Part shown: positions 866 through 37,084 of the stretch, one piece after another | Numbering within the stretch: position 1 is the first letter of the stretch | Layout of the letters: each line of letters starts with the position of its first letter | The notes under the pieces: model-generated | Databases searched by the model: none | Seen by the model: only the letters and a program-made list of their open reading frames with translations | What the model was told of the DNA's origin: nothing | Assembly: GCA_028289425.1 (NCBI GenBank) | Contig: JANQPL010000017.1 | Coordinates: forward strand, 62,001 to 126,000 | From: Alphaproteobacteria bacterium | GTDB taxonomy: Bacteria > Pseudomonadota > Alphaproteobacteria > JANQMY01 | Length of the DNA: 64,000 nt | Direction of reading: 5' to 3' | Made by a program: the position numbers and the translations under genes

Positions 866-1906
866 TCAAAGGGGATTTTCGTATCGGCTTAGCATTGTTC
901 TGGCCTTGGCCAATTGCTGAGGCCGTGCACTGAATTGACTGGCGCCATTTGCTTGGCGGTCGATCCGATAAGTGTTTAGAAGGATCAGCGTCCACCTCAA
1001 AACGTAGAGTGGCAGCAGTCTCTCTAAACGGTCGAGGAATGCCGAGGTGGGGGAAAGTTCGGTGGCGATTGCCTCTACGACCTTAAGCTTATCATGGCGC
1101 GTCAGGGACATTGCAGGATGCAATAGAAAATCTGCCACCAGCTTTACCGGGTCGTCCCAGCCAAAATATTCAAAATCGAAAAACCGAAGTCGACCGTCCG
1201 CCTGCCGAAGTGCATTGTGAAACCCAAAGTCGGCTGCCACCAAACGTCTGTGTTTCAGTGGTAAATCGGTTGCTTGGCCGTCAAGGTCGTTGTTGGATAA
1301 ACACCAATGTTCTAAACGTGGTAAGAAGCTCTGCTCCAGAAACACCTCAAGTTCTGCGTCGGTTATAAACATATTCAGCCGATTTTGAATCTGTACTAGT
1401 ATCCGGCTTTCTGACAGACAGGCCTCCACGTCGGTTCCAAAAGATTCTTGACTGGCGTTTTCCGAGCTTTTGAAAACCGATGCCACAAACGTCAGGGCCT
1501 GGGCCAAATCAGAGTCTGAGTGACGTGATATCCGTACGCCATCGATCCATTCCATCACCAATATCTGGCGGGCATCATCTCGGTGGTGGGGCCGGGGGGC
1601 TGACGATATTCCTTCGGACTGTAGAAACGACAGTGCACACCATTCTGCGTCGAGGCGGTTGCGGCGATTGTCGAAGTGCGGCGGAAACAGCTTCACGGCC
1701 ACCGTCTGTTTGTCGGTTATGGCCTTGTAAACACTACTGTTGGCGCCTGCACCGATCATCTGGAACTCGCGCAATGGTGCGTGCAAAATCGCTTCCGCTG
1801 CAGATCTTGCTTCCTCGAGAATGCGTGCGGCGGACCGATCCACATCACTGAAAATTTCTGAATTCGGATTGGTCGCGTTGGCCACTGGGTGGACCTCAGG
1901 CCGCAT
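866..1906 (-). CDS. APH/choline-kinase-like phosphotransferase
   Basis: IGAGANSSVYKA, VAVKLF, VMEWIDG and ADFGFHNAL...FFDFEYFGWDDP kinase-type motifs. Confidence 0.8.
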   Translation of the reverse strand: MRPEVHPVANATNPNSEIFSDVDRSAARILEEARSAAEAILHAPLREFQMIGAGANSSVYKAITDKQTVAVKLFPPHFDNRRNRLDAEWCALSFLQSEGISSAPRPHHRDDARQILVMEWIDGVRISRHSDSDLAQALTFVASVFKSSENASQESFGTDVEACLSESRILVQIQNRLNMFITDAELEVFLEQSFLPRLEHWCLSNNDLDGQATDLPLKHRRLVAADFGFHNALRQADGRLRFFDFEYFGWDDPVKLVADFLLHPAMSLTRHDKLKVVEAIATELSPTSAFLDRLERLLPLYVLRWTLILLNTYRIDRQANGASQFSARPQQLAKARTMLSRYENPL

Positions 1907-8632: not shown

Positions 8633-10156
8633 GGCGGATGCCTCAAAAATGCGCTGGTACTCTGCAACATAATTTGGATTGTCAGGGCACATATTCTTTG
8701 CCGTTTCAATCAGGATGCGTGATCGTTCGACATGGCCAGACCGGTGCATGAGCCTGGCGAGCTGAAAATGGCCCTCCCCAAACGATGGTGTGAATTTGAC
8801 AAGAGCCTCGAACGCATTGGTTGCCTCCGCGATACCTGCGTCTCCCTTCGACAGGGCCGCTAACCCCAGTCGATAGACATCGTCGCGATGTTGAACTGTC
8901 CCGTCAAACTCAAACCAATCGGGGCTGACAATTGCTGCCTGTTCTTCGAGATAGGCTTCGAAGACTGGGCCCAATACTCTGATTGCCGCGGCATTTTGGA
9001 TGCCCGGCTCAAATCCCGTAAAGATCTTATTGATATGGCGGCCCATGCATGTCTTGCATTGACCATGAGCGTATTTTTGCGTGAGGATCTCCTCATTGGT
9101 TGTGTGCAGAAAGTCGTCGGCAATGACCGAATCCGGACCGTAGGTTGCGCAGCAGAGGGACACGGAACCGTCGAAGTTAATCGTGGTTCTTCGTTCACGA
9201 AATTGGCAATCGCTTGTCGGTCCAGCTGCCTGCGCATACAGGGAAAGTGTTTCGTCGACGCCGATGACGAGGTTGTCAAGCAAATCCTCCTCGACTGCCC
9301 CGGGTGTGCCATCTAATACATCAATGACTTTTTCCACAGGCATGATTGTTGCGAGAACAGGGGCAAACAAAAAACCAAGTTCGTCGCACAACGATCGGAT
9401 GGCCAAAAAATCGTCTGGGAAATTTGATCTGTAAACGTGAAATCCAACCTGGACGATCATCTCAGACTCGTATCTGTCCATGAACTCACGTAGCCGATAC
9501 ATGTTGGCCTTAACGGCGTTTATGTTTCCGAGCCGGTGCGTCATCCCATAGGTCTGGTTCCGTGATCCGGAAAGAGAGATTCGGAAATAGTCCGGCGATT
9601 CTCGGACCACATTCTTAAGGTCAGGAAACACATTTAGATTGCTTGATATCCCAACGACGAATTGCCGTTCTTTTGCCAGTCTCACCAGTTCCGACAGATT
9701 CCTGTGCAAACCGGGCTCTCCCCAATTGTACAGATCGACGGCGAGACGGGCACCGTGTGGCTGATCACTTCGAATCTTGGCTAGTGTTTCCTTAAATTTG
9801 GTCACAGTCATCACGCCTTTGGGCATGAGCTGCGCCATGTTTCCAACCGCGCAGGATGGGCATTTCAGATTGCAACTGCCGACAACGTCTACAAAGTAGT
9901 AGTGGTCCGACACGTGAATTTTGTTTAGTGCATGAGTTAGTTCACGTTGTTTCGCGAGATCGATGGCCGGCAAAGCGCTGTCGTGCGCTTTGCGCCGGTT
10001 CGCTTGACGCAGTAATTCTCGAATCCGCCCTAGTTCGACCGTCAGCTTTTCGTTCTGTTGGAGAGCCTCCCTCAAACGTTGTTCATCCGTCTCATCTCGT
10101 TGTCTCGGTTTCGCAGGCGCGAAGGATCGAACCGGCGGATCTTGTTCAGGCTTCAT
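8600..10156 (-). CDS. Radical SAM/SPASM-type protein with C-terminal TPR-like tail
   Basis: VVGSCNLKCPSCAVG (CX3CX2C), INFDGSVSLCCATYG ... CKTCMGRH SPASM-like cysteines. Confidence 0.85.
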   Translation of the reverse strand: MKPEQDPPVRSFAPAKPRQRDETDEQRLREALQQNEKLTVELGRIRELLRQANRRKAHDSALPAIDLAKQRELTHALNKIHVSDHYYFVDVVGSCNLKCPSCAVGNMAQLMPKGVMTVTKFKETLAKIRSDQPHGARLAVDLYNWGEPGLHRNLSELVRLAKERQFVVGISSNLNVFPDLKNVVRESPDYFRISLSGSRNQTYGMTHRLGNINAVKANMYRLREFMDRYESEMIVQVGFHVYRSNFPDDFLAIRSLCDELGFLFAPVLATIMPVEKVIDVLDGTPGAVEEDLLDNLVIGVDETLSLYAQAAGPTSDCQFRERRTTINFDGSVSLCCATYGPDSVIADDFLHTTNEEILTQKYAHGQCKTCMGRHINKIFTGFEPGIQNAAAIRVLGPVFEAYLEEQAAIVSPDWFEFDGTVQHRDDVYRLGLAALSKGDAGIAEATNAFEALVKFTPSFGEGHFQLARLMHRSGHVERSRILIETAKNMCPDNPNYVAEYQRIFEASASDLMPTESRR

Positions 10157-10688: not shown

Positions 10689-10846
10689 AACCCAACTGTT
10701 CCAATTCCGTAATTGTGGAAGGGGTGCAACTTGCTTGACTCAATCTAAGACTCTTCCTACCAGGTTTTTGACATTGATGCGCGGTATATGTGAACCGGGC
10801 TCTCTTGCGGGCGGTGCATCTACAACGAACTTCAGGCCGGAAGTGT

Positions 10847-11854
10847 ATGAGCGCAGACAAATGCGAAATCGATTTGGTGACCGGCGGTGCGGGCTTTATC
10901 GGGAGCCATCTGGTTGATCGCCTCCTCTCTTTGGGGCGAAGGGTTCGCGTCATCGACAATTTTTCCAACGGGTCACTGCGAAACCTTGAACACCACGCGG
11001 GCAATCACGCACTCGAAGTCGCAAAGTTTGACATTCGTGAACAAGAAGGCCTGGAAGCCTATTTTGCAGACGTCGGGCGCGTATTTCACTTGGCAGCGCT
11101 TGCAGACATTGTTCCCTCAATCACGAATCCGACGGACTACTTTCGGGCCAACGTGGACGGCACCTTTCATGTGGTTCAAGCTGCGGTGAAGGCACAAGTC
11201 GAGCGGTTCGTCTATTCGGCTTCGTCCAGCTGCTACGGAATTCCCGACAGTTACCCCACGCCAGAATCCGCTGAAATCCGCCCTCAATATCCTTATGCTC
11301 TGACAAAGTATCTGGGCGAACAGTTGGTGCTTCATTGGGCACATGTCTACAAATTGCCGGCCATATCCTTGCGGTTCTTCAATGTGTTCGGACCGCGCGC
11401 CCGCACAGGCGGTACGTATGGCGCTGTATTTGGTGTGTTCCTCGCCCAGCATATTCGTGGCGAACCGCTAACGATTGTCGGAGATGGCACCCAAACCCGT
11501 GATTTCACTTTTGTTGACGATGTGGTGGATGCGATCCTGACCGCAGCAGAGGCGCGGCAAGTGGGCGCGGTCTACAATGTTGGTAGCGGCGGGCACTATA
11601 GTGTGAATGAGCTCGTCCGACTGATCGGTGCTGAAAAGACGGTTGGAATTCCGAAGCGACCAGGGGAACCGGACTGCACCTTTGCTGACGTGAGCAAGAT
11701 CCAGCGTGAACTTGGATGGTCGGCAAATACTCCGTTTGAAGATGGAGTTAAAATCATGATGAAGAACATCGACTACTGGAAAGACGCACCCTTGTGGACA
11801 CCTGAGCGAATCACCGAGGCGACCAAAGACTGGTTCGCACTTCTGAGCGACTAG
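10847..11854 (+). CDS. NAD-dependent epimerase/dehydratase (UDP-sugar 4-epimerase-like)
   Basis: VTGGAGFIGSHLVDRLL, SSSCYGIP, YALTKY, FNVFGPRA. Start moved from 10790 to ATG 10847. Confidence 0.9.
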   Translation: MSADKCEIDLVTGGAGFIGSHLVDRLLSLGRRVRVIDNFSNGSLRNLEHHAGNHALEVAKFDIREQEGLEAYFADVGRVFHLAALADIVPSITNPTDYFRANVDGTFHVVQAAVKAQVERFVYSASSSCYGIPDSYPTPESAEIRPQYPYALTKYLGEQLVLHWAHVYKLPAISLRFFNVFGPRARTGGTYGAVFGVFLAQHIRGEPLTIVGDGTQTRDFTFVDDVVDAILTAAEARQVGAVYNVGSGGHYSVNELVRLIGAEKTVGIPKRPGEPDCTFADVSKIQRELGWSANTPFEDGVKIMMKNIDYWKDAPLWTPERITEATKDWFALLSD

Positions 11855-12219
11855 GTTTCAGTGTTCACCCGTTTGGATTGTTTTCATAAGTCGCAGAACA
11901 TTATGCGGAATATTCATTCCGTGCATTGATGAAAAATCGCCTGTAGTTGCGACCCGAATCCCTCTAAACTAGAATTGAGTGATTCGAAGCGAGTTCGGGT
12001 TGTCTTTACTCGTCAGATACAAGCAGATGTTGATTTTTTGTTCGACGGTTCGGAATTGTGATGGGCCACCAAGTAGGACCGGACGTGACGGGTGAGAAGA
12101 TCAAGCACTTTGCCCAAAAGGTTGATCTGCAGACGAACATTGTGTGGTTGGCTGGAACAGAGCAGTCACGTGTAACAGGCAGATGGGCAGTTAGCACTGT
12201 CGATTGAGGGGTTGTATTG

Positions 12220-13815
12220 ATGTTACGCGAGACAAGCGCAATGCGGCAGACGCTTGAGGCGTCTGAGGGGCATGCGCGGGGTGGCTCGAAAATCGTCACC
12301 CTTGAAGAGCTTGCGGCCATCGCCAATCGTTTGCGCACGGAGAACAGGCAGATTGTGTTGTGCCATGGTTGTTTTGACCTGGTACATGTTGGACACTTGA
12401 GGCATTTCAAAGCGGCACGTGATCATGGAGACGCTCTGGTTGTCACCATCACTGCCGATAATTTCGTCAACAAAGGCCCCGACAGACCCGTCTTTTCCGA
12501 TTTGCTGAGAAGTGAATTTCTTGCGAGCTTAGAGATGGTCGACTATGTCGCTGTCGTCCATGAGCCGAGTGCAAGACCGGCAATCGAAGCTGTCCGGCCG
12601 GCTTTTTATGCCAAAGGAAGCGAGTATTCGCAGGCCGACGACGATATCACTGGCAAAATCGTTCACGAAAAGGATTTGGTGGAGAAATTCGGGGGCACAC
12701 TGATCTTCACCGATGACATAACTTATAGTTCTTCAAATCTGCTCAACAAGCACTTTGCGGTGCGGAATCCGGCTGCGCGGGACTATCTAGAACAGAAGCG
12801 TGGATCAAATTTCGAGGATCTGCTGACCCATTTCTTGGACAGAATTGCGGATATGAAGGTCCTCCTCGTCGGCGAAACGATCATTGATCGTTACGTCTAT
12901 GTGGCGCCAATGGGGAAAGCCTCCAAAGAAAACATTATTGCGACGCTTCATCAGGATGAAGAGGCTTTTGCGGGGGGCGCTGTTGCCGCGGCCAACCACT
13001 TGGCAGCAATCTGTCCAAACGTGGAATTGGTGACCTCATTGGGCGATGCCAATTGCGGCGAAAACTACGAGCAATTGGTGCGGGACCAACTGCATGATGC
13101 GGTGGTTCCCACATTCCTTTACAAAACGGATGCGCCCACTGTCGAAAAGACCCGGTTCGTGGAACCGACTCATGTGCGCAAACTGTTTGAAGTATATCGC
13201 ATGGATGACAGCCGCTTGGAGCAAGCTCAGCAGGCTGAACTGCACACCCTGCTGTCAGAAAGATTTAGTGACGTTGACCTAGTCGTCGCGTGTGATTTTG
13301 GGCACGGACTGATCTCAAAGCAAACTGCAGATTTGCTTGGAAAAGAGAGCCCATTCCTCGCCATAAACGTCCAGTCCAACGCGGGTAATATCGGATATAA
13401 TCTAGTCCCGAAATATCACCGTGCGGACTTTTTGTGTATTGACGCCATGGAAGCGAGATTGGCCGCCCGTGAAAAACACGCCGATGTGCCCACACTTGTC
13501 GAACAACACTTGCCGAGCATTATTGATTGCGACCGTTTCATCGTGACTCACGGCAAGTCAGGGTGCTTCACTTCCTCTGAAGATCGTCCCGAAGCATCAC
13601 ACATTCCCGCCTTCAGCGACACGGCAATCGACACGGTTGGGGCGGGGGACGCGTTTTTTGTAATGGCATCTTCGATGGTAGCAGCCGGTGCAGATTGTCC
13701 CACAGCAGGCTTCCTTGGAAATGTGGCCGGCGCGATCAAAATCGGAATCGTAGGACACCGTCGATACATCAACAGGCTTGAGATCCTTAGAAGCGTGAAG
13801 ACCCTACTCAAATGA
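12220..13815 (+). CDS. Bifunctional nucleotidyltransferase (N-terminal) / PfkB-family sugar kinase (C-terminal), HldE-like with reversed domain order
   Basis: N-terminal VLCHGCFDLVHVGHLRHFKAARDHGD (HxGH), C-terminal GETIIDRYVYV...GGAVAAANHLAA and DTVGAGDAFF. Confidence 0.85.
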   Translation: MLRETSAMRQTLEASEGHARGGSKIVTLEELAAIANRLRTENRQIVLCHGCFDLVHVGHLRHFKAARDHGDALVVTITADNFVNKGPDRPVFSDLLRSEFLASLEMVDYVAVVHEPSARPAIEAVRPAFYAKGSEYSQADDDITGKIVHEKDLVEKFGGTLIFTDDITYSSSNLLNKHFAVRNPAARDYLEQKRGSNFEDLLTHFLDRIADMKVLLVGETIIDRYVYVAPMGKASKENIIATLHQDEEAFAGGAVAAANHLAAICPNVELVTSLGDANCGENYEQLVRDQLHDAVVPTFLYKTDAPTVEKTRFVEPTHVRKLFEVYRMDDSRLEQAQQAELHTLLSERFSDVDLVVACDFGHGLISKQTADLLGKESPFLAINVQSNAGNIGYNLVPKYHRADFLCIDAMEARLAAREKHADVPTLVEQHLPSIIDCDRFIVTHGKSGCFTSSEDRPEASHIPAFSDTAIDTVGAGDAFFVMASSMVAAGADCPTAGFLGNVAGAIKIGIVGHRRYINRLEILRSVKTLLK

Positions 13816-14444
13816 CCAAAGAGATTTCGCCGGACAGCTTTGCTGGTAGCATTCCCAACGCTTTATATTCGTCGTACGCATCAACGCTGGAGCGTGTCCT
13901 TGTCGGTGCCATCGCGACGAATGGGGCGGGCGAACACTTTTCGATGGAATCCGCCATCCGAGCGATGGGGCACGCCATGCGAGAAGCGCATGATCGAGGC
14001 AATCAACTTTTTTTTGTTGGTAACGGCGGCAGTGCGGGAATCTGTAGTCACATGGCTACGGACTACAGTAAGAATGGCGGCATTCGATCGACTTCGCTAA
14101 ATGACGGCGCAACACTGACCTGTCTCGGTAACGACTATGGCTATGAGCATGTGTTCCAGAAACAAATTGAATGGCACGCGCGTTCGGGTGACATCATCAT
14201 AACCATCAGCAGTTCCGGAATGTCGCAGAACATTTTGAATGCGGCGGACCAGGGCCGGTCAAGCGGCTGCACCGTGTTTACGCTGAGTGGATTTAGTCAG
14301 GATAACCCATTGCGTTCCAAGGGCGACTTAAACGTATATCTCGACAGTACCGAATACGGTTTTGTTGAAGTTGGGCACTTAGCCGTTCTACATGCGGTTC
14401 TGGATATCCAGATGGGTTGGGTGCCGCCTGCAAGGCCCAATTGA
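13812..14444 (+). CDS. SIS-domain sugar isomerase, GmhA-like
   Basis: FFVGNGGSAGICSHMATDYSKNGG ... CLGNDYGYEHVFQKQIEWHARSGDIIITISSSGMSQNIL; ATGA overlap with the upstream kinase gene. Confidence 0.85.
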   Translation: MTKEISPDSFAGSIPNALYSSYASTLERVLVGAIATNGAGEHFSMESAIRAMGHAMREAHDRGNQLFFVGNGGSAGICSHMATDYSKNGGIRSTSLNDGATLTCLGNDYGYEHVFQKQIEWHARSGDIIITISSSGMSQNILNAADQGRSSGCTVFTLSGFSQDNPLRSKGDLNVYLDSTEYGFVEVGHLAVLHAVLDIQMGWVPPARPN

Positions 14445-14487
14445 ATCGGATTTACTAACCAGCGAGAATGTGAGGGCTTGAGCATTT

Positions 14488-15504
14488 ATGACATCGGCAA
14501 GACACGTCTTGGTCACCGGTGGTGCCGGTTACGTTGGCAGCTTACTCGTGCCCAGATTGCTCGATCTAGGGCATGCTGTAACAGTATTGGATCTGTTTTT
14601 GTACGGAGCAGATGTATTCGAGGATGTGTCGCAAAATCAAAACCTGGTTCAGGTGAGAGGGGACATTCGTAATCCCCTGGCCGTGAAAACCGCATTGACC
14701 AACTGCGATTCAGTAATCCACCTGGCATGCATTTCAAACGATCCGTCCTATGAGCTTGACCCAGGGCTTGGAAAGTCAATCAACCATGATTGTTTTCGGC
14801 CGCTTGTGCGAGCTGCTAAGGAGGCGGGTGTTGAGCGATTTATCTATGCTTCCTCCTCTAGCGTTTATGGCGTGAAAGACGAGGATGAGGTCACGGAGGA
14901 ACTGCCGCTCGAACCTTTGACCGACTATTCAAAATTCAAGGCGGTCTGCGAAAACGTCCTTGAAGAGGAAAGGGCGCCGGGGTTCGCGGCGTTGACTATT
15001 CGACCTTCCACTGTATGTGGGTACGCGAAGCGTCAACGATTAGACGTTATCGTCAATATACTGACTAATCACGCTGTGATAAACCGCAAGATAAAGGTAT
15101 TCGGAGGCGAACAGCTTCGTCCCAATATCCACATTCATGACATGTGCCGGGTATACGAGAAGGCATTGGAGTGGCCTGCTGACGCAATCGACGGCAAAGT
15201 TTACAATGTGGGCTATGGCAATGCGACTGTCATGGATCTTGCCAAAATGGTGAAGCGCGTTGTTGAAGGCGATAATGAGTTTGGCGGCGAAATAGAGCTT
15301 GAAGTCGTGCCGACGGACGACAACCGCTCATATAAGGTATCGTCAAAGAAGATTGCGGAGGAATTGGATTTCACGCCGGAAAAATCGATCGAAGATGCCG
15401 TTAGAGATTTGTTGAACGCCTTCAAGGAAGGCCGTCTTGCCGACACGATGAATGACAGCCGTTACTTCAATATCCGAACGATGCAAGAATGCCAGCTGAG
15501 GTGA
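14488..15504 (+). CDS. NAD-dependent epimerase/dehydratase
   Basis: VLVTGGAGYVGSLLVPRLL, ASSSSVYG, YSKFK. Confidence 0.9.
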   Translation: MTSARHVLVTGGAGYVGSLLVPRLLDLGHAVTVLDLFLYGADVFEDVSQNQNLVQVRGDIRNPLAVKTALTNCDSVIHLACISNDPSYELDPGLGKSINHDCFRPLVRAAKEAGVERFIYASSSSVYGVKDEDEVTEELPLEPLTDYSKFKAVCENVLEEERAPGFAALTIRPSTVCGYAKRQRLDVIVNILTNHAVINRKIKVFGGEQLRPNIHIHDMCRVYEKALEWPADAIDGKVYNVGYGNATVMDLAKMVKRVVEGDNEFGGEIELEVVPTDDNRSYKVSSKKIAEELDFTPEKSIEDAVRDLLNAFKEGRLADTMNDSRYFNIRTMQECQLR

Positions 15505-15556
15505 CGCGAACGCATCTACAACGAAGAGCTGCGGGTTCAATGGATTCGACCGAGTC

Positions 15557-16612
15557 ATGAAAGCGCCCGTTGGTATCGGCATCATTGGCGGCGGGATGAT
15601 CGCTCAGATCGCGCATCTACCATTTTATCTTTCGGACGACAGGTGTGACGTCCGGTGTATTGCCGAAGAGCGACCTTCCCTGAAGGCCGTTTTGGCTGAT
15701 TCTGTCGGTCGACAGAAAGTGGTCGAAGACCATGAGGAGTTGTTGTCTGACCCTGAGATATCAGCCGTAATTGTGTCGGCACCACGACCGGCTACGGGAA
15801 GCTTGACGCTCGCGTGTCTCCAGGCCGGAAAGCATGTGCTCGCCGAAAAACCGATGGCTCACACGACAGAGCAAGCAAGGCAATTGGTCGGCGCTGCCAA
15901 GGCCAAAGAGCTTGTTTACGCGGTCGGGTACATGAAGCGATTTGATCCAGGTCTCGAAGCTGCAAGATCGCTGTTCGAAGAATTTGTAGCAGATGGTCGT
16001 CTCGGTCCTCTCCTATCTGCAAGGTTCTACGATTATTCTAAATCCTATGCGGTGCCGCCTCCGCCTCACGCGCGCCCCAAGGAAAGTCGGAAAAAGAGAT
16101 TCAGCTCTTGGCCGACTGCGCCTGCCTGGTTGCCCGAAGAGTTAAGCGACGAATATGCGTGGTTTGTGAACGCAGGAAGCCATGATGTAAATCTCCTGAA
16201 CTGGTTTTTCCCGGAAGGCGTGTCGTTGATATCCGCATTTGGCTCTGGCAAAGGCGTCGTTTCGGCGATGTTCGAAGGGCGCGGATGCCCCATACACCTG
16301 GACGTGACCAAGACCGAGGCGGGCAGATGGCTTGAAGGCGCAGAGTTCCTGTTTGAGCGGGGACGGCTCGCAGTTTCAATTCCATCGCCCATGTCGGTCG
16401 GGGAAGTATCTCGGGTCATTGTGGATGATCTGTCAGGTGAAGGAACCGAAATTACAAAACCAGAAAAGGCGGTTTGGTCATTCGAGGCTCAGGCGCGCGG
16501 ATTTCTCGATGTTTTGACGAATGGAACATCGCCGAGAACAAGCGGCGTCGATGGACTCGCCGATCTCGAACTGATCGAAACAATGTGGAAGGACATTGTG
16601 AGCAAGTCATGA
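15557..16612 (+). CDS. Gfo/Idh/MocA-family oxidoreductase
   Basis: VGIGIIGGGMIAQIAHLP, AVIVSAPRPATG, KHVLAEKPMAHT. Confidence 0.9.
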   Translation: MKAPVGIGIIGGGMIAQIAHLPFYLSDDRCDVRCIAEERPSLKAVLADSVGRQKVVEDHEELLSDPEISAVIVSAPRPATGSLTLACLQAGKHVLAEKPMAHTTEQARQLVGAAKAKELVYAVGYMKRFDPGLEAARSLFEEFVADGRLGPLLSARFYDYSKSYAVPPPPHARPKESRKKRFSSWPTAPAWLPEELSDEYAWFVNAGSHDVNLLNWFFPEGVSLISAFGSGKGVVSAMFEGRGCPIHLDVTKTEAGRWLEGAEFLFERGRLAVSIPSPMSVGEVSRVIVDDLSGEGTEITKPEKAVWSFEAQARGFLDVLTNGTSPRTSGVDGLADLELIETMWKDIVSKS

Positions 16613-17901
16613 AAGCGGCTTTACAGGTGCAACCTGACATTCCATCAGTGGTCAGACGGACTGAATGCCGTCTGTGCGGCAGCACCGACCTCATCTGTTC
16701 TGTGCCGCTTGCCCAGGTGCCTATCGCCTCTCCAAATGTGGGCAAAATTGAGGATTATTCAGGGGGCCGACTTGACCAAATCGTTGCGCCCCTGGACAAT
16801 TACCTGTGTGGCTCATGCGGTCTCAATCAACTCGTCCACGTGGTCGATCCGTCCTTGATTTATCGTGATTATCTCTATCGGACGTCCGTATCAATGGGAC
16901 TGTCGGACCATTTCAAAGATCTGGCGAATGGCGTTGTGGAAACGCTTCAACTGCCCGTGGGCAGTTTTGTCGTCGAATTTGGCAGCAATGACGGCACCCT
17001 GCTGAGGCACTTTAAGAACGCCGGCATGAAGGTGCAGGGCATCGATCCCGCGCAAGCAATTGCGTCCGAAGCGACCGCGGCAGCAATACCTACGATCGCT
17101 GATTTTTTTTCTGAATCAATTGCGAAGCAGATCGTGGCAGATTCGGGAGAGGCCGATGTTATCGTTTCGAATAATGCGATGGCGAACATCGACTCCCTTG
17201 ATCAGATCTTGAATGGTGTTCGTGCTCTTCTGAAGGCTGACGGTGTTTTTGTATTCGAGACCCAGTACGCCCTCGATGTGTTTGAGAAATTCTTGCTGGA
17301 CGTAATTTATCACGAACACATTTCTACATTTTCGGTGAAACCGGTGGTCGAGGCTTTTGCACGGTATGGTCTTGAGGTTTTTGATGCGCAGAGAATTCCG
17401 ACGAAAGGGGGATCAATACGATTTTGGGTTCAGCACAAAGACGGCGGGCGCATCAGATCACCCGAAGTCATGCGGCTCATTCGACTAGAACATGAAGCGG
17501 GTCTTTACGATCCCGCATATCACGAGCAGTTCGCGGCCAAGGTATTGAACCTAAAGCAGCAGGTTCACGCAATCGCGGAAGCCGCCCAGCACAGCGGCCG
17601 TCTGATTGCGGGTTACGGAACGTCAGTAGGTTGCGCTGCGTTAATCCACCAGCTTGAGCTTGAACAATGGTTAGACTGTTTGTACGACGATACACCGTTT
17701 AAGTCTGTGATCGAAGGACCGGGATATCGATTGCCAGTCCACAAGGGTGAGAATCTCAGCACGCAGAACCCTGCAATCGTCTTCGTTTTGGCCTGGCGAT
17801 ACGCGAAACCGATAATGGCAAAACAAAAATCCTACCTCAAATCCGGCGGCCGCTTTATCGTGCCCCTGCCGGATTTGTCCGTGCTTTCTGGGTGTGCTTA
17901 G
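16609..17901 (+). CDS. Zn-finger class I SAM C-methyltransferase
   Basis: CRLCGSTDL...CGSCGLNQLVHVVDPSLIYRDYLYRTSVS, VVEFGSNDGTLL, ADVIVSNNAMANI, VIYHEHISTFS; ATGA overlap with the upstream gene. Confidence 0.85.
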   Translation: MKAALQVQPDIPSVVRRTECRLCGSTDLICSVPLAQVPIASPNVGKIEDYSGGRLDQIVAPLDNYLCGSCGLNQLVHVVDPSLIYRDYLYRTSVSMGLSDHFKDLANGVVETLQLPVGSFVVEFGSNDGTLLRHFKNAGMKVQGIDPAQAIASEATAAAIPTIADFFSESIAKQIVADSGEADVIVSNNAMANIDSLDQILNGVRALLKADGVFVFETQYALDVFEKFLLDVIYHEHISTFSVKPVVEAFARYGLEVFDAQRIPTKGGSIRFWVQHKDGGRIRSPEVMRLIRLEHEAGLYDPAYHEQFAAKVLNLKQQVHAIAEAAQHSGRLIAGYGTSVGCAALIHQLELEQWLDCLYDDTPFKSVIEGPGYRLPVHKGENLSTQNPAIVFVLAWRYAKPIMAKQKSYLKSGGRFIVPLPDLSVLSGCA

Positions 17902-17906
17902 TGCGT

Positions 17907-18572
17907 TCACTCCATGAAGATGAACTCGTAGTCTCCGGTGTAGCCGAAACGGTTGTAGAGCCAAATCCACTCGTCCGTATCGAGAAAGGATTCGGCGGTC
18001 AGTGCCCAACATTGCAAGTTGAAAAGCTCCTGTTCATCCCGATAGCTCTCGACCATGATGTATTTTTTCCGTCCGACGCGCTCAATTTCTCGAACGGCAC
18101 ACTCCAGCTCCATCAGTCGAAGATTGTGAAGACACCCAAGTGAGATGACGAGGTCGAAGGTATCTGCGGGCCATGGATAGGGCTGTTCGGCGCGGTGCCG
18201 GATCAAGTGCTTTCTAACGTCTTCCTTAGCGTCTTCAAGACCGTGCCGGGAAATATCAAAACCGGATACCTCAAGGCCAGGCACAAGCTTCAGCATCTCG
18301 TGAAGTAGGTAAGCTTTGCCGCAGCCCACGTCCAATACTTTGGAGCCCTCGCTCAAATCATAAGTCTCAATCAGAGCCTGGGCGACCGGGGTCCAGCGGC
18401 CGGGAATGTACCTATACCCACCGTATCCGTATCGCCGATCGCCATCCCAGTAGTCGGCTTCATAGAATTTGGCCTTTTTCATGCAATGAACTTTGTCGTC
18501 GACCATGCGCGCCAAATAATCCCGGCTGGTCATTTGATGCAGTGGCGTCACGATGTTCATCAGTCGTCCCAT
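17907..18572 (-). CDS. Class I SAM-dependent methyltransferase
   Basis: GSKVLDVGCGKAYLLHEML ... FDLVISLGCLHNLR. Confidence 0.85.
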   Translation of the reverse strand: MGRLMNIVTPLHQMTSRDYLARMVDDKVHCMKKAKFYEADYWDGDRRYGYGGYRYIPGRWTPVAQALIETYDLSEGSKVLDVGCGKAYLLHEMLKLVPGLEVSGFDISRHGLEDAKEDVRKHLIRHRAEQPYPWPADTFDLVISLGCLHNLRLMELECAVREIERVGRKKYIMVESYRDEQELFNLQCWALTAESFLDTDEWIWLYNRFGYTGDYEFIFME

Positions 18573-19042
18573 GGTAGTGGTCCCTGCACTGTTGGGGCGC
18601 TAACCGACAGGTTGGAGAGTTTGTTTTGTTCTATGGGCTGCCGAGAATCCGCTTGGGCCTGTTCCCCAATTTTGAGCTCGTACATATGCCCGAGCTCGCT
18701 CAGCCCTTGTTCGTCATTGATCTCTAGGTTTTCCACGGCGCCGTGAATTGATGCGCCCGCTTGAAAGATTGCTCGACAAAAGGTGTCGCGACGCTCGCGT
18801 TTCATTGGCAGCATGAACACTGAGTACAGCACGAAACCGTCTACTCGCTCGACCTCACGCAGCAGCTCGTGGAGCATGATATAGCAACTGGGCATGGCGT
18901 ACTCGGTGGCAGACAATAGATACGCAATGCCATTACGCTGACAGTAGTCACGGACAACCAAGTTTTGGACATGCTGGGGCACGCGGTCGCCAAAATACGG
19001 CCGAGACCCGATATATCCTCTGTATCCGAACCGATTGGTCAT
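18560..19042 (-). CDS. Sporadic carbohydrate cluster protein, LIC12192-like (TIGR04323 by memory)
   Basis: RGYIGSRPYFGDRVPQHVQNLVVRDYCQRNGIAYLLSATEYAMPSCYIML matches the remembered family signature. Confidence 0.7.
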   Translation of the reverse strand: MTNRFGYRGYIGSRPYFGDRVPQHVQNLVVRDYCQRNGIAYLLSATEYAMPSCYIMLHELLREVERVDGFVLYSVFMLPMKRERRDTFCRAIFQAGASIHGAVENLEINDEQGLSELGHMYELKIGEQAQADSRQPIEQNKLSNLSVSAPTVQGPLPWDD

Positions 19043-19065
19043 TGCGCTATTGCCGTAATTTGAAC

Positions 19066-19890
19066 CTACTCGCTAAAGCCTTCTGGCAGACGATAGTCCA
19101 AACCAATGCGGCTCGCTGGCCGCAAATTGACGAATTCAAAAAATTCTCCCAGCTTCTTGTCTGCATAGGGAGACAGAGCACTTTTGAATCGGCAATTAAG
19201 GCTCCACCGGGTTTCGTCCTCGATGTTGATGCGATTTCCATGCATCACGGTTTGTGTGAATATGAGGATGGATCCAAAATCGATTTTGAGAAACTCTAAG
19301 TCACCAGAGACGCTTGCATACAAGTCTTCTGCGGAACCGTTTTGGTGGTCCGACATCACCATTTGATAAGAGCGATCGCTGCCAATGGGCAATATGTACA
19401 TGCTCTTAGTCTTGAAGCAGTCTACAAGAGGTACCCACACCACCACTTCGAAAGGCGAGTCACCGTCCCAGACGTCCGCGTGGATCGGCAGCAGAGAACT
19501 CGAGTCGTTGGGTAATTGAACACTAAGACCAAGGCCGCGCTGCATGGCGAGTTCATTGCCCACCAGCGTGTGTAGCGCTTCGAGAACTAGGGAGTAATAG
19601 GTGGGCCGGACCCAGGGGGTGCTGCGCAAGGTTTGAATCACTTCAAGCCGCAAGTCATTCAATGACTCAGCACCGACGTAAAGGTGGATGTTGTTCAGAA
19701 GGTCTTCCGGCGACTTCGTCGGCGATATGTTGAGCGTCTCAGAAACGGTGTCTGCTACCAGTTCCCGAATGGCATGAAGCCCTTCTGAATTCTCGGTGGG
19801 CAGAATTACATATCCCTTACCCAGAAAATCTGAGACCAGCGGCGATTCTTCAAGTGCTTCAAAGCAATCGGGGCGGGAGATGTTCATCAC
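19066..19890 (-). CDS. 2OG-Fe(II) oxygenase-like protein of the sporadic carbohydrate cluster
   Basis: LPIHADVWDGDSPFEVVVWVPLVDC (HxD motif) and distal H in QTVMHGNRINIEDETRWSLNCRFKS; adjacent to the LIC12192-like gene and the transketolase pair. Confidence 0.7.
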   Translation of the reverse strand: MMNISRPDCFEALEESPLVSDFLGKGYVILPTENSEGLHAIRELVADTVSETLNISPTKSPEDLLNNIHLYVGAESLNDLRLEVIQTLRSTPWVRPTYYSLVLEALHTLVGNELAMQRGLGLSVQLPNDSSSLLPIHADVWDGDSPFEVVVWVPLVDCFKTKSMYILPIGSDRSYQMVMSDHQNGSAEDLYASVSGDLEFLKIDFGSILIFTQTVMHGNRINIEDETRWSLNCRFKSALSPYADKKLGEFFEFVNLRPASRIGLDYRLPEGFSE

Positions 19891-20828
19891 GCCACATTCT
19901 TCTGTGCCACATCGTTCAAAATCCGATTAGTGATCTGATCCGGCTGAAGCCCATTCAGCGACAGCAAATCATCTTGCACGCCGTAGTTTGTTGCGAAAGC
20001 GTCTGGTAGACCCAGGCGGACGAGTGCCGGCATGCCGCTTCTCTCGGCGAACAGTTCAGCGACGGCACTTCCCAGGCCGCCTATTCGAGTGTGCTCTTCC
20101 ACGGACACCACAAGACTCGCGTGATGTGTTCTTTCGATGATGAGTTCTTCGTCCAGCGGTTTGATTGTGTGTATGTGAATAACCTCAGAGTCGATCCCCT
20201 GTCTCGAAAGGAGTTTGCTTGCAGAAAGGCATCGGTTGGTCATGACACCACAGGAAACGAACACAACAGCGCCTGTGCCCGCCGCTTCGCGCATGACGAT
20301 CCCTTTGCCGATTTCAAATCCTCTTCGATCGTGGCTGACAATAGGGTCGCCCCCCTTGCCCAAGCGGATGTAGATCGGATGCGGCCAATCGAGGGTCGCC
20401 TTCATAAGGCGCACCATCTCGTCAGAGTCCGCAACGGCGGTTACGGTCATATTCGGAAGCGCCCGCATGATGGCGATGTCTTCTACGGCGAGATGGGTGG
20501 GTCCCAAAGGCGCGTACACTACGCCGCCGCCATTTCCGATAAATCTCACTGGAAGGTCGTGCAGGCAAAGGTCCAAGGCGACCTGCTCATAACTGCGGCG
20601 CGTAATGAATGTGGCGATTGTGTTTACGAACGGCACAAAACCATCCATGGCCATGCCGGCGGCCATTCCGATCACGTTGGCTTCGGTAACGCCCTCCATG
20701 AAGTAGCGGGCGGGCATTTCTTCTTTCATTTCTTGAAGGAGGCCGGGGCTTAGGTCGGACCCGATGAAGACCACACGCGGATCTTGCTGCGCCAATTGAT
20801 GGACCATGTTGAGGCAGGTCTTTCTCAT
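19887..20828 (-). CDS. Transketolase, C-terminal subunit
   Basis: FIGSDLSPGLL...FMEGVTEANVIGMAAGMAMDGFVPFVNTIATFITRRSYEQV transketolase pyrimidine-domain pattern. Confidence 0.9.
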   Translation of the reverse strand: MRKTCLNMVHQLAQQDPRVVFIGSDLSPGLLQEMKEEMPARYFMEGVTEANVIGMAAGMAMDGFVPFVNTIATFITRRSYEQVALDLCLHDLPVRFIGNGGGVVYAPLGPTHLAVEDIAIMRALPNMTVTAVADSDEMVRLMKATLDWPHPIYIRLGKGGDPIVSHDRRGFEIGKGIVMREAAGTGAVVFVSCGVMTNRCLSASKLLSRQGIDSEVIHIHTIKPLDEELIIERTHHASLVVSVEEHTRIGGLGSAVAELFAERSGMPALVRLGLPDAFATNYGVQDDLLSLNGLQPDQITNRILNDVAQKNVA

Positions 20829-21685
20829 GCAGGCGTCCTCAGCGCTTCGTTCATCTCGGTCAGTATCTCGGGAGAGAATTTAGAATGGTGGTGCCATTTC
20901 GGATTGTTCTCGGCGAACGGGATCCCTTTTCCCTTGACCGTGTGGCAAATCACGGCGGTCGGTCTGTTGGAGGCAATGGGGACAGATTTAAATACGTCGG
21001 ACAACGCGCTCATGTCGTGCCCATCCACATCCACGGCTTTGAATCCAAAACTTGTCCATTTGTCGAGGAGCGGTTCAAGCGTCTGAATCTCTTCCGTCGG
21101 GCCTGCCGATTGGATCTTGTTGTAGTCGACAATGGCGCAGAGATTTGACAGCTTGTGCTTTCCTGCACACATCGCGGCCTCCCAGACGGACCCTTCATTG
21201 ATTTCGCCGTCGCCCATCACCACGAAGACTCTGCTGTTGCGGTTTTGCATGCGCGCCGCCAGCGCCATACCCACGCCAATAGAAAGTCCATGACCGAGTG
21301 CACCGGTCGACGCCTCCACGCCCGGTACTTTGCCGCGCTCCGGATGACCGCCCAAGATTCCATCAACATGGCAAAAGCGATCCAGCTCTTCCGCGTCGAA
21401 AAATCCTTTGTCCGCCAAGAGGGCGTAGAGTGCCAGACAACCATGCCCTTTCGACAAGATACAGCGATCACGTTCCGGCCAACCGGGCTGGTCCGGTTGG
21501 AACCGCAAGACCTCATCGTAGAGCGATCGTAGAATCTCAATGAGCGACATTGACGAGCCGACGTGACCGCGATTGCCGCCCACCAGCCCCCGCACGACCA
21601 ATTGGCGCAAATATAATGACCGTTCATCGAGAAGTGCCGGTTGGACGGACGAAGAAGCGATACCAGTCAAATTCATGCTCCGCAT
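20825..21685 (-). CDS. Transketolase, N-terminal (ThDP-binding) subunit
   Basis: NRGHVGSSMSLIEIL, SKGHGCLALY, VFVVMGDGEINEGSVWEAAMCAGKHKLSNLCAIVDYN; 4-nt overlap with the C-terminal subunit gene. Confidence 0.92.
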   Translation of the reverse strand: MRSMNLTGIASSSVQPALLDERSLYLRQLVVRGLVGGNRGHVGSSMSLIEILRSLYDEVLRFQPDQPGWPERDRCILSKGHGCLALYALLADKGFFDAEELDRFCHVDGILGGHPERGKVPGVEASTGALGHGLSIGVGMALAARMQNRNSRVFVVMGDGEINEGSVWEAAMCAGKHKLSNLCAIVDYNKIQSAGPTEEIQTLEPLLDKWTSFGFKAVDVDGHDMSALSDVFKSVPIASNRPTAVICHTVKGKGIPFAENNPKWHHHSKFSPEILTEMNEALRTPA

Positions 21686-21812
21686 GGTTGTCGACTAATC
21701 TGAGCACGATCTATGACACGATTCGGACGCCCATCAGAGGGCAGAACGACGTTTGAGCGCGCCGCTTCAACAATTGAACACCTGACGAATCAGACGACCT
21801 TACGCGCGGGAA

Positions 21813-22451
21813 TCAATGCGCCGATCCAAACAGAGTCGCTTCGATATCTTGCCACGAGTTATGGGCCACCAAGGGGGTGCTAACAGGTCCAGGCCGGCTA
21901 TTTGCAAACCAGATGGGCGTTACGCCAGAAGGGAAATCCCTGTGCGAAAGGACTTCCGGCAAATCGTCCACGAAGAATTGACAGCCCAGAGATCGAATGC
22001 GGTCAATCTTGGCATCGCGTGTTTCTTCAAAATGCACGTCCGCCGGTCGAAGACCATACCCGTCAAGGTCAAAAAATTGGTGATCTTCAAGCCAGTCACG
22101 GGCGGCATCCCATAGATTGATCTTGTGTTTGTCGAAATGTCCGCGCTTAGTCTTGTGGCTCACAATGCTGATTGTGCATCCAGCCGATCGGGCCCTGAGC
22201 AGACAGTTGCCGGCGCCGGCAAACAACTGGGCCCGCTTGATAAATCGGCCGTATACCTGCCCCTGTAGCCGCATCCATACCTTTTCCCCTTGTGCCGAGT
22301 TTGTCAGATACGATTTCGTTGCGACTTTTGAGGAAAGCGCAGTGCCCTCGGGAACCAAGCCAATTTCAACAGCTACCTGGCCGAACACACGATCGTAGTC
22401 GATCAGGGTGTTGTCGAGATCAATTCCAATGTGAAAGGGGGCCGGTTTCAC
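21813..22451 (-). CDS. HAD-superfamily hydrolase
   Basis: IGIDLDNTLIDYD (DxDxT), SIVSHKT, K...FFVDDLPE motifs. Confidence 0.8.
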   Translation of the reverse strand: MKPAPFHIGIDLDNTLIDYDRVFGQVAVEIGLVPEGTALSSKVATKSYLTNSAQGEKVWMRLQGQVYGRFIKRAQLFAGAGNCLLRARSAGCTISIVSHKTKRGHFDKHKINLWDAARDWLEDHQFFDLDGYGLRPADVHFEETRDAKIDRIRSLGCQFFVDDLPEVLSHRDFPSGVTPIWFANSRPGPVSTPLVAHNSWQDIEATLFGSAH

Positions 22452-24578: not shown

Positions 24579-25790
24579 TTAGACGATCAATAGCTGCGCA
24601 GTCACACCAAGGGATTTCAATTCTGCTCGAATCTCGTTCTCGTAGGTGGCGTTCATCAAATAGATCACGTCGGGTTTGATCCCCTTCAAAGCCCATGGCG
24701 GAACAATCTCCTGACCCGTGCCAGGGATGAACTTGCCGTGTTTGCGGGGGCTAATGTCCACTGCATAGGGCAGGCGATCTCGCTCGCCGTCGCCTTGAGT
24801 GAGATTCAGAAATGTAACCCCCTTTGAACCGGCGCCCCAAATGGCGGCGGTCTTGTTCTGCAAAGCAAGCTGACGTCGTGTTTCTTTCCAAAACTCGCAC
24901 TTTCTGTGGAAGCTCTCCGAAAACCGATCTGCGAGTTCGGTCACATTGGAGAGTGCTGAGCCGTTAGCGGTGTCGGACTTGGTGGCCTGAGATTTTTGTG
25001 AAGTGAGTTGTAGGTCAATTGACAAGAACTGCCGATCATAAGCCGGCTCAACGCGCAAAACCTCAAAGCCGCACCGCTTGAAAAGATGAGAAAGCGACCC
25101 GGACCAAAAGTAGGAACAATGTTCGTAGATCAGGTCCCAAATGCCGAGATCTTCCAGCGTGAACAGACCGTTGGGCACTTCGAAATAGGCAATCGCACCT
25201 GGATTGTGTTTGAGCGCTTGCTTCACTGGCGTGATAAATGTAGCCGGCTCAGGCACATGTTCCAGAACGTGACGGCAGCAAAAAAAATCGGCGGAATGGA
25301 CTTCAAATTCCGGACTGAAGTTTTCAGGAAACACTTGAACACAGTCCGGCAGTTCTGCGCTGGACCGGTCGAAGCTTTGATCGAATCCCAATCCGGCATT
25401 GTTTCCCAAGCGGCATATCTCCGCGAGAAACTCTGCCTGACCACACCCCAGTTCGATGATCGTTCGTTCGCGCAAATCATAGGTATCGATTAGGCGAAGG
25501 GCTAGGGTTCGCGCATATGTTCTGAAATGTTCAGAAAAGTGAAGTGATGTCTCGTAGTTTTCGCCATACTCCAACAGCTTGGGTTGAAAATCGCTATTGA
25601 AGCAATGTCCGCACACGTCGCAAAAGGTAAGGTCGATATTCCCCTTCGGTGCGCCGAGCGCTGAGGCACGATCAAGCCACAGATTGTTGCACACAACCGG
25701 GACATTGCTCATTTGCAACAAGCGTTTGGTGTGCCGGGAAAAGCAAACCGGGCAAGTCGCGGTTTGCGTATTTAAGGATTCTGTGCTCAC
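24579..25790 (-). CDS. Zn-finger class I SAM C-methyltransferase
   Basis: CPVCFSRH...CDVCGHCFN, TIIELGCGQAEFLAEI, FCCRHVLEHVPEP, IWGAGSKGVTFLNL C-terminal domain. Confidence 0.88.
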   Translation of the reverse strand: MSTESLNTQTATCPVCFSRHTKRLLQMSNVPVVCNNLWLDRASALGAPKGNIDLTFCDVCGHCFNSDFQPKLLEYGENYETSLHFSEHFRTYARTLALRLIDTYDLRERTIIELGCGQAEFLAEICRLGNNAGLGFDQSFDRSSAELPDCVQVFPENFSPEFEVHSADFFCCRHVLEHVPEPATFITPVKQALKHNPGAIAYFEVPNGLFTLEDLGIWDLIYEHCSYFWSGSLSHLFKRCGFEVLRVEPAYDRQFLSIDLQLTSQKSQATKSDTANGSALSNVTELADRFSESFHRKCEFWKETRRQLALQNKTAAIWGAGSKGVTFLNLTQGDGERDRLPYAVDISPRKHGKFIPGTGQEIVPPWALKGIKPDVIYLMNATYENEIRAELKSLGVTAQLLIV

Positions 25791-25802
25791 AGAAATCAGG
25801 CC

Positions 25803-27029
25803 CTAGGATGCCAAGGCTTCTTCAGACGGCATGTAATGGGTTATGGGCAGCACTTCGGGAGAAAGTCCACGCTCTGACAGCGTTGATTGAATTTCGTCAG
25901 TATAGACTGGGTTCATCACAATCACCAGATCTGGATTGAGCGCCACCAGCGTATCTGGACCAACAACTGGATGGCCCGTTCCCGGCAGAAAGGTGTTCCA
26001 CTTGTGCGGGTTAATGTCGACCGCCGCCTCGATACTGGCACCCGTCTCGATCGTTGTCAGAAAAGACACTGCTTTCGATCCGCCTCCCCATAGGACGGCC
26101 TTTTGTTTTTTGTTTGCCACGGCATTCAGTCTGTTCGACCAGGCGTCTCTAAACTGAGCCACCGTATTACGGAAACTCTGTATACGATGTGTGCTTAATG
26201 GCTCTTGTTTTGACGGAGCGACAGTTGGTTCGCCCGCTATATCTGCTTCGGCAACAAGATACTGATCGTCATAAACGGGATAAATATCAGTGACGTCGAA
26301 TTGCGCAAGGCTCAAGAGGCGACGAAGCGCCGCCGGAGTGAAATAAGAACAGTGTTCGTAGTAGACGTCCCAAAAAGCCTTTTCGTCCAAGATGTAGTCG
26401 GCATTGGGTATCATAAAGAAGAGAGATGCATTCTGCTTTTCGCCGATTGCACGCCGAATACCGTGCATGAACGAAAGCGTGTTCGGAATGTGCTCCAACG
26501 TCATTTTGCAGCAGAATAGGTCAGCTTGTTCTGTCTGGTACGCGTCGGAATAGAAATCGGCGACAAAAGACGCACCAGTGCTGCGTTCCACATCGGCGCG
26601 AGAAGGATCGTAGGCCGGGTCGAATCCAAGGCCTTCGTTGCCGCCCAAGTCGCAAAGCAGTGACAAGAACTCCCCCTGTCCGCAACCTATTTCGATGACC
26701 CTTTTTTTCTTTAGGCCGAAGCGGTCGATCACATGCTGTGCGAGTTTGTGGTGGAATGTATTGAATGTCTCAGAATATGCCTGCGTCGCTTCGTAACCAG
26801 CGCCATATGCTTCCAGATGCGGATCGAACTGCGTATTCCAAATGAAATCGCAAGATGTGCAGTGCGCAAGCGTGATGTTTCCCTTCTGAAATGCTTTCGC
26901 CTTGTCGCTTTCATCGAAAAGCAGAACACTGTGAGTCGGAACAGAGGGGACTTCGTAAAACACCGAGCCAATGCCGTCGGCGCAATTGGGGCATACCAAT
27001 CCCGTCTGATTGTTTTGTTCGGTGCTCAT
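25803..27029 (-). CDS. Zn-finger class I SAM C-methyltransferase, tandem paralogue
   Basis: CPNCADG...CTSCDFIWN, RVIEIGCGQGEFLSLL, FCCKMTLEHIPN, LWGGGSKAVSFLTT. Confidence 0.88.
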   Translation of the reverse strand: MSTEQNNQTGLVCPNCADGIGSVFYEVPSVPTHSVLLFDESDKAKAFQKGNITLAHCTSCDFIWNTQFDPHLEAYGAGYEATQAYSETFNTFHHKLAQHVIDRFGLKKKRVIEIGCGQGEFLSLLCDLGGNEGLGFDPAYDPSRADVERSTGASFVADFYSDAYQTEQADLFCCKMTLEHIPNTLSFMHGIRRAIGEKQNASLFFMIPNADYILDEKAFWDVYYEHCSYFTPAALRRLLSLAQFDVTDIYPVYDDQYLVAEADIAGEPTVAPSKQEPLSTHRIQSFRNTVAQFRDAWSNRLNAVANKKQKAVLWGGGSKAVSFLTTIETGASIEAAVDINPHKWNTFLPGTGHPVVGPDTLVALNPDLVIVMNPVYTDEIQSTLSERGLSPEVLPITHYMPSEEALAS

Positions 27030-27044
27030 AAAATCGCCCCACGC

Positions 27045-28298
27045 TCAAGTAACAACGTGCGGTTCCGGAACGGGAATAATGAACTTACCACCACGGCGTC
27101 TGAACTCGTCTTGTTGGTTGATGATTTCGTCGGCAAAATTCCAAGCAAGAATGAGAAGATAGTCCGGCACTTCGTTGTCAATTCTTTCAGGTCCACAGAT
27201 CGGCAGCGCATTTCCACTCATAAAGCGTCCCTGCTTGTGGGGATTGCGGTCGGCAATAAAGTCCAGATGATTGGCGTCTATTCCGCAATAGCTCATCAGA
27301 GTGTTTGCTTTTGCGGCAGCCCCATAACCGGCAATCCTTTTCTCATCGCGTTTGATGTCCTCAAGGATATCCATCAGGGCCGTTTTCAAGCGCTCGACGC
27401 GATTCCCAAATTGTTCGTAGTAATCTGCTTTCGTAACGCCAAGCTCGGATTCGTACTTCAGGAAATGTCGGACACTTTCCCTTAGGTTCTCCTTAGGCTC
27501 AACGAACAGCCGTAAGGAACCGCCATGAATATCGGTTTTGACGACGCGATTTAGATGCAGTCCGTGGCGACGGAACAGAGACACCAGTGCCGTCACCGAG
27601 AAGTAGCACAAATGTTGATGATAGATTGTGTCGAACTCGAGCTTCTCAACAAGGTCCACCAAGTAAGGCGCTTCAATGACTGCGACGCCGTCGTCTTTCA
27701 AGACGTGTTGAATCCCTGCAACAAAGCCATTCAAATCTGCGACATGTGCGAGAACGTTGTTCGCCAGGAATACGTCCGCAGACTGACCATCGAGTACTAG
27801 TTTTTCGGCCAAGTCACTAGTGAAGAATGTTTTTAGTGTGGGAATCCCGTCTGCGATCGCTTTGTCGGCTGGGCCTTCGGCTGGGTCCACTCCCAACACC
27901 TTGATGCCTTGCTCCACAAAATGGCGCAGCATATATCCGTCATTGCTGGCCGCTTCGACCACCAGATGATCTGTCCCAAGATTTCTTTCTTCGATGAGCG
28001 CCTTAGCGCTGGTGCCGAAATGCTTCATCAGGTAGGGAGAAACCGATGAATAGTAGGGGTAGTCGTTGCAGAACAAGACGTCCGGCTCAACAGTTGCCAG
28101 GATTTGCACCAAGCTGCAGTTTTCGCAAAAGACCAGATCAAGGGGGGCTTTGGGTTCTGGAGCAGTCAATGACTCCTGTGTCAACAACCGATCGGCAAGA
28201 GGCGTCTCTCCAAGATCCAAGATCTTTGTAAGACGTGCCTCGCCGCAAGAGCGGCAACCATCAATGATCTCAACAGGTGCCCCGATACCCTTACGCAT
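27045..28298 (-). CDS. Zn-finger class I SAM C-methyltransferase (NDP-hexose C-methyltransferase-like)
   Basis: [25 protein letters not shown]...[54 protein letters not shown]. Confidence 0.9.
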
Positions 28299-29334: not shown

Positions 29335-29485
29335 GGGGTCCATTCGTCTTTCTGGTCTCAACAGACAGTATCATCAATGCGGGAGGTTGCTGTCCCGTAA
29401 AACCTGACCTCGGGTCTCAACAAGATTTGGCAGTTGCCGCATTTTGCGACAGCCTCCAACCGGCGACATTCACTCGGTTTCGTTG

Positions 29486-37059: not shown

Positions 37060-37084
37060 CGCATCAAAATCTTGGAAAACTAAA

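Follow-up and report, generated by a model that had tools for sequence, protein, structure and literature searches.

A split transketolase (TK) encoded beside heptose-like sugar enzymes in a 64,000-nucleotide stretch from an Alphaproteobacteria bacterium (contig JANQPL010000017.1 of assembly GCA_028289425.1, positions 62,001 to 126,000 of the forward strand; hereafter the window) belongs to a gene cassette that we read, with a probability of about 0.5, as making a C2-branched or C2-extended heptose-type sugar for a surface glycan. The cassette genes are real and their grouping is beyond chance. The reading builds on direct observations of gene content, gene order, co-occurrence, mutual exclusion and residue changes. 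It is supported by the genomic link between TK and a fused nucleotidyltransferase-kinase (NTK), the mutual exclusion of TK and a pair resembling pyruvate dehydrogenase E1, acceptor-site changes in TK beside an intact thiamine site, a precedent in avilamycin biosynthesis, and an APH-fold kinase and HAD phosphatase that track TK.

With the 2-oxoglutarate (2OG) oxygenase of the cassette as search seed, we collected 80 named loci in which the set recurs with conserved order, spread over alpha-, beta-, gamma- and deltaproteobacteria, Actinobacteria, Acidobacteria, Cyanobacteria, Chloroflexi and one metagenome-assembled genome (MAG) of Chitinophaga. The common order is SDRa-NTK-(SIS)-SDRb-HAD-APH-TKN-TKC-oxygenase-TIGR04323-methyltransferase, where SDRa and SDRb are epimerase-type short-chain dehydrogenases/reductases (SDRs), SIS is a GmhA-like isomerase, and TKN and TKC are the two halves of the split TK. 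By gene order the closest named relative of the window is a Rhodospirillales MAG (L033). Many loci come from MAGs and some genomic regions are represented more than once, so locus counts are not independent and genome counts are cleaner; presence counts also vary with flank length. To counter the seed bias of the oxygenase set, we searched 387 genomes of the window's class with TK-C. The matches fall in two clear groups. In 22 genomes the best full match to the window's TK-C reaches at least 52% identity, and 57 genomes hold other split TKs whose identity is about 40% or lower. NTK is present in 21 of the 22 genomes with a cassette-type TK, against 9 of the 365 without (p=1e-26), and shows no link to the other split TKs (2 of 57 genomes, p=0.64); the genomes share kinship, and these p-values overstate independence. 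Among loci with long flanks, APH accompanies TK in 31 of 35 and HAD in 27 of 35, while neither is found in the 8 loci that lack TK, and the class I methyltransferase occurs in all 35 of those TK loci. Five TK loci carry TK, APH, HAD, SDRb, SIS and NTK without the oxygenase (L192, L193, L197, L198, L201), and TK loci without the TIGR04323 and TIGR04324 markers exist. An apparent absence of SIS from many loci was set aside, as G335, G365, G159 and G035 have a GmhA-like SIS just beyond the first flank. The view that the cassette is a single functional unit with its own TK is supported.

In nearly all of 57 cassette enzymes, TK retains the residues for thiamine diphosphate, Mg and catalysis (H26, H66, GDG, N185, H261, E411, H473). 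The acceptor site, numbered as in E. coli TktA, differs in nearly all of the same enzymes: mostly Gly, Gly and Leu replace S385, H461 and D469, and Lys stands in place of R520, so that the acceptor set of a canonical pentose-phosphate TK (S385, H461, D469, R520) is not present. Positions 385, 469 and 520 have been mutated to shift E. coli TK off phosphorylated acceptors (PMC5073344), and a characterized split TK lacks such substitutions (PMC7661550). The closest solved relative of TK-C, the Carboxydothermus hydrogenoformans split transketolase (6YAK, E 4e-55), is likewise two-chain and, unlike the cassette TK, retains His and Asp at the H461 and D469 positions. The genome also encodes a separate full-length TK and a second split TK that retains H461, D469 and R520. 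This second split TK (L114; C12:248000-267999, ~9.0-10.8 kb) has Ala at the H473 position, its canonical acceptor site being intact.

The NTK loci without TK were examined for substitutes. Ten of them hold a gene pair that matches the alpha and beta subunits of pyruvate dehydrogenase E1 (Pfam, NCBIfam), and in no locus were the E1-like pair and TK seen together. In 6 of the 10 the pair directly follows SDRb, which is the slot of HAD-APH-TKN-TKC elsewhere; in L082 and L104 the oxygenase and TIGR04323 genes come next after the pair. The loci L080, L086, L089, L046, L071 and L057 were rejected as TK-less, since a cassette-type TK (53-60% identity) lies elsewhere in those genomes. An acetyl-transferring enzyme yields a 1-deoxyketose, which an aldose-ketose isomerase cannot use. 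Because the E1-like pair is swapped into the same slot, and because an acetyl-transferring enzyme could not feed the isomerase, these loci suggest that the substrate of TK is a sugar produced by the cassette and that TK does not supply the isomerase. E1-like pairs have been reported to attach C2 branches to sugars (PMC4753412, PMC12247030); in avilamycin the pair AviB1/AviB2 does so with the non-heme iron enzyme AviO2 (PMC4425429). The sequence-only reading had proposed a heptose-like pathway with its own TK as ketose supplier. Its single unit, dedicated TK and kinship to heptose enzymes are supported, but the feeding of the isomerase by TK is not supported as the main reading, given the altered acceptor pocket and the loci in which isomerase and NTK occur with an E1-like enzyme instead of TK; its aside that TK may transfer a C2 unit to something else is the better-supported half. 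One E1-type NTK locus (L227, 10667-14096) also carries a PseC-like aminotransferase and a radical-SAM protein, which hints at an amino-sugar version.

In NTK the nucleotidyltransferase precedes the PfkB kinase, the reverse of HldE. HldE domains are the top match to both halves in 25 of 25 relatives, with the window protein far below cut-off; against the NCBIfam HldE equivalog it scores 151.6 bits (cut-off 521), whereas the genome's own HldE (C20) reaches 488 and clears the cut-offs of both domains. The HxGH and GAGD motifs are invariant, and the closest solved structure to the kinase half is the heptose-7-phosphate kinase HldA. The nucleotidyltransferase half is equally near to cytidylyltransferases. 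SIS is nearest to phosphoheptose isomerases and falls below the NCBIfam gmhA cut-off (78 bits, cut-off 209). It retains the phosphate-site serines. His180 and Glu65 of GmhA (E. coli numbering) we take to be the catalytic pair; His180 is retained in 29 of 32 cassette members, while Asp stands at Glu65 and Glu at Gln172 in 32 of 32, against Glu and Gln in 27 of 27 canonical sequences. In a tree from a short search the cassette branch lies apart from GmhA, with which DiaA groups (support 92). Judged by these comparisons, GmhA and HldE are the nearest kin of the isomerase and NTK, which nonetheless form separate branches. Canonical HldE and HldD are encoded elsewhere in the genome, and a search of the genome for a second GmhA-like isomerase found none, leaving the cassette SIS as the sole one; SIS as a simple GmhA replacement was ruled out, as many carriers possess both. 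SDRa is GalE/LegB-like, below cut-offs, with an epimerase-like SSSCYG...YALTK motif; SDRb has SSSSVYG...YSKFK and is 45-67% identical among cassette loci.

The sequence-only reading had held that SIS and kinase-nucleotidyltransferase domains grouping with non-heptose families, or TK occurring elsewhere without these partners, would refute its heptose-like pathway. SIS forms its own branch beside GmhA and joins no other known family, and a cassette-type TK is without NTK in only 1 of the 22 genomes. The comparison with GmhA, HldE and GmhB bears out the first two as nearest kin of SIS and NTK, at scores below the cut-offs, and finds no GmhB similarity in HAD.

The HAD protein has no Pfam match at E<=0.001, no NCBIfam match, and resembles phosphoserine phosphatase only weakly by profile (E 0.01); its HAD-type motifs D11, D13, T15, S98, K100, D162 and D163 are invariant in 32 relatives. 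The APH gene (~330 residues) lies between HAD and TK-N in relatives, or is fused to HAD. The window copy, placed apart from TK, shares 37% identity with its counterpart in the L033 cassette; the catalytic D, N and D do not vary within the family, and another genome of the same genus (L204) has HAD, APH and TK on one strand within 11 kb. Because no long-flank locus has APH or HAD without TK, the two enzymes probably work on something that the TK reaction brings. A 649-residue open reading frame (ORF) without a Pfam family (1896-3845, minus strand) overlaps the start of the APH kinase gene.

The oxygenase has an invariant iron triad (H137-x-D139...H217) and 2OG-binding R228. Searched by sequence against solved structures, neither the oxygenase nor the TIGR04323 protein gave a usable match, and we therefore turned to fold prediction. 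The predicted fold of the oxygenase matches 2OG dioxygenases. For the TIGR04323 protein, hitherto named only as a carbohydrate-cluster protein, the AlphaFold2 model (pLDDT 90) is best matched in Foldseek by the catalytic domain of TP901-1 integrase (E 9e-5, probability 1.00, TM 0.56/0.67), predicting a serine-recombinase catalytic-domain fold. Ser13, which follows strand 1, is replaced by Cys, Thr or Ala in part of the family. Because the oxygenase loci, with at most one exception, all have the TIGR04323 protein, this protein is probably a partner of the oxygenase and not a recombinase.

We infer every substrate and reaction of the pathway that follows. From a phosphoketose, probably housekeeping sedoheptulose-7-phosphate, the GmhA-like isomerase and NTK would make an activated sugar of the heptose type. 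This sugar would be epimerized or oxidized by the SDRs, and perhaps by the Gfo-type oxidoreductase. The remodelled split TK would then add a two-carbon hydroxyacetyl (ketol) unit to it, and the resulting branched or extended sugar would have about nine carbons; where other genomes have the E1-like pair in place of TK, the added unit would be acetyl. Candidate targets of the APH kinase and HAD phosphatase are, for example, the additional hydroxyl group that the new unit carries and a donor phosphate, and the 2OG oxygenase, its TIGR04323 partner and the methyltransferase would finish the sugar by oxidation and methylation. More tentatively, the cassette may represent a widespread route to branched or extended (~nine-carbon) surface-glycan sugars, in which a remodelled split TK adds hydroxyacetyl to a heptose-type sugar nucleotide and is exchanged in the same slot for an acetyl-adding E1-like pair.

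Several observations weigh against this pathway. The core set has no 4,6-dehydratase, both SDRs being epimerase-like by motif, a weak point for a reading that calls for a keto acceptor. In the 57 cassette enzymes R358 is retained and R520 becomes Lys, so TK may still take a phosphorylated acceptor. The D469L change was ruled out as unique to the cassette TK subfamily, being common to other polysaccharide-cluster TKs, and the acceptor-site change therefore marks a class and not the cassette alone; other TKs of the D469L type also lie near NTK, SIS, APH, HAD or oxygenase relatives, and split TKs without the change are located elsewhere. No precedent accounts for the job of APH and HAD.

A reading as two or three separate sugar pathways, merely co-located and travelling together in a polysaccharide island, draws on the uncorrelated presence of TK and NTK among the oxygenase-seeded loci (p=0.6), on the loci L070 and L081, which have APH, TK, oxygenase and TIGR04323 but no NTK within ~20 kb, and on the opposite strands of the two cassette halves in the window. 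The genome-level TK-NTK link and a co-directional order conserved across phyla run counter to such an arrangement, and most TK-less NTK loci have another thiamine enzyme, or a cassette-type TK elsewhere in the genome; we consider it improbable. The closeness of SIS and NTK to heptose enzymes, together with the strong TK-NTK co-occurrence, would also fit a TK that serves as dedicated supplier of ordinary sedoheptulose-7-phosphate for a nucleoside diphosphate (NDP)-heptose pathway. We find this highly doubtful in a genome with a full-length TK, for an enzyme that has lost D469, H461 and S385 and that is replaced elsewhere by an E1-like pair.

Another ordering, with a precedent in the lincosamide octoses through the transaldolase LmbR and the isomerase LmbN (PMC5854111), would build the chain before activation: TK would join a C2 unit to an unusual aldehyde, APH would phosphorylate the ketose, SIS would isomerize it, PfkB would phosphorylate C1, HAD would remove the terminal phosphate, the nucleotidyltransferase would activate the product and the SDRs would finish it. 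Every enzyme is thereby given a job, and the tracking of TK by APH and HAD, the retained phosphate-site serines of SIS and the altered acceptor pocket all agree with it. However, SIS, NTK and the SDRs also occur where an E1-like pair replaces TK, APH and HAD and where the isomerase could not use a 1-deoxyketose, which makes this ordering rather unlikely in our view.

Among known systems, the window locus is a member of the NCBIfam 'sporadic carbohydrate cluster', whose markers TIGR04323 and TIGR04324 are adjacent and above cut-off; the NCBI names give no function, and nothing was retrieved under the cluster name, LIC12192 or 'split transketolase' in the literature searched. According to a 2025 review, hydroxyacetyl transfer to a keto sugar by split TKs has been proposed for miharamycin and amipurimycin but not yet shown in vitro, and its 13 split-TK candidates all come from Streptomycetes (PMC12247030). 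Those systems likewise place a dedicated split TK within a sugar cluster, whereas the window, compared by description, holds a surface-glycan-type cluster with HldE/GmhA-like genes, APH and HAD. The E1-like (alpha-keto acid dehydrogenase 2) enzymes AviB1/AviB2, Pau11/Pau12 and that of aldgamycin are also split thiamine enzymes in sugar clusters, and our E1-type loci have such a pair; the window has a TK instead, which would add hydroxyacetyl and not acetyl. The ADP-heptose pathway (GmhA, HldE, GmhB, HldD) shares a GmhA-like isomerase, HldE-like domains, a HAD and an SDR, but the window differs by scores below the NCBIfam cut-offs, the swapped nucleotidyltransferase-kinase order, changed isomerase residues and a dedicated TK. 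The lincosamide GDP-octose pathway (LmbR, LmbN, LmbK, LmbO) joins heptose-like activation to a carbon-chain enzyme of its own (PMC5854111, PMC12945683), although LmbR is a transaldolase transferring C3 and the window enzyme a TK. A bradyrhizose lead (the 11-gene O-antigen cluster of photosynthetic Bradyrhizobium) was dropped: PMC4743980 does not mention transketolase, and the gdh primers matched none of the loci then collected.

If a TK does branch or extend a cassette-made heptose-type sugar, two-carbon sugar branching by TK would extend from the few Streptomyces antibiotics for which it is proposed to many Gram-negative and some other phyla, the orphan NCBI families TIGR04323 and TIGR04324 would gain a pathway, and nature would offer TK variants at the positions that engineers mutate for acceptor choice. 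The TK-type and E1-type versions, side by side, make the idea directly testable.

The window genes form two facing groups, SDRa to the C-methyltransferase on the plus strand and HAD to the methyltransferase on the minus strand (Table 1). TK-N and TK-C, TK-C and the oxygenase (4 bases), and TIGR04323 and the methyltransferase overlap by a few bases. All ORFs named by the sequence-only reading (split TK, SIS, kinase-nucleotidyltransferase, HAD) were found where it had placed them. Its kinase and nucleotidyltransferase prove to be one fused protein, nucleotidyltransferase first, and its gene list had omitted the oxygenase, the TIGR04323 protein, the class I methyltransferase and the APH kinase. 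The Gfo/Idh/MocA gene is found in only some cassettes (also L033, L056, L060, L116, L117, L119, L199).

Table 1. Cassette and accessory genes in the window; families other than that of HAD were assigned by Pfam and NCBIfam profile matches.
Gene product	Position	Strand	Basis or remark
APH-fold small-molecule kinase	866..1906	-	Pfam APH, 37 bits
SDRa, NAD-dependent epimerase-type SDR; conserved first cassette gene	10790..11854	+	Pfam Epimerase, 203 bits
NTK, fused nucleotidyltransferase (residues ~49-159) and PfkB kinase (~214-510)	12217..13815	+	Pfam/NCBIfam
GmhA-like SIS isomerase, own subfamily	13812..14444	+	SIS_2 match
SDRb, NAD-dependent epimerase-type SDR	14488..15504	+	Pfam Epimerase, 137 bits
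Gfo/Idh/MocA oxidoreductase, accessory	15557..16612	+	Pfam
Methyltransf_13/14 C-methyltransferase, accessory, start uncertain	16474..17901	+	Pfam; also in L033, L056, L060
Class I methyltransferase, last gene of TK operon	17907..18572	-	Pfam
TIGR04323 (LIC12192 family) protein	18560..19042	-	127 bits, cut-off 55
TIGR04324 2OG-Fe(II) oxygenase	19066..19890	-	296 bits, cut-off 150
TK-C, C-terminal half of split TK, remodelled acceptor site	19887..20828	-	Transket_pyr and Transketolase_C
TK-N, thiamine-binding half of split TK	20825..21685	-	Transketolase_N, 165 bits
HAD-type phosphatase	21813..22451	-	catalytic motifs

Beside the cassette, a sulfotransferase-like gene on the plus strand faces a weakly radical-SAM-like gene on the minus strand (7400-10156). 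Three adjacent Methyltransf_14 C-methyltransferase-like genes (24579-28298, minus strand), followed by an SDR gene (28291-29361), are perhaps a second branched-sugar set. Further along, an ArsR-methyltransferase fusion gene lies beside a methylenetetrahydrofolate reductase gene and a 1238-residue ORF (35099-40801, plus strand), a probable methionine-synthesis group.

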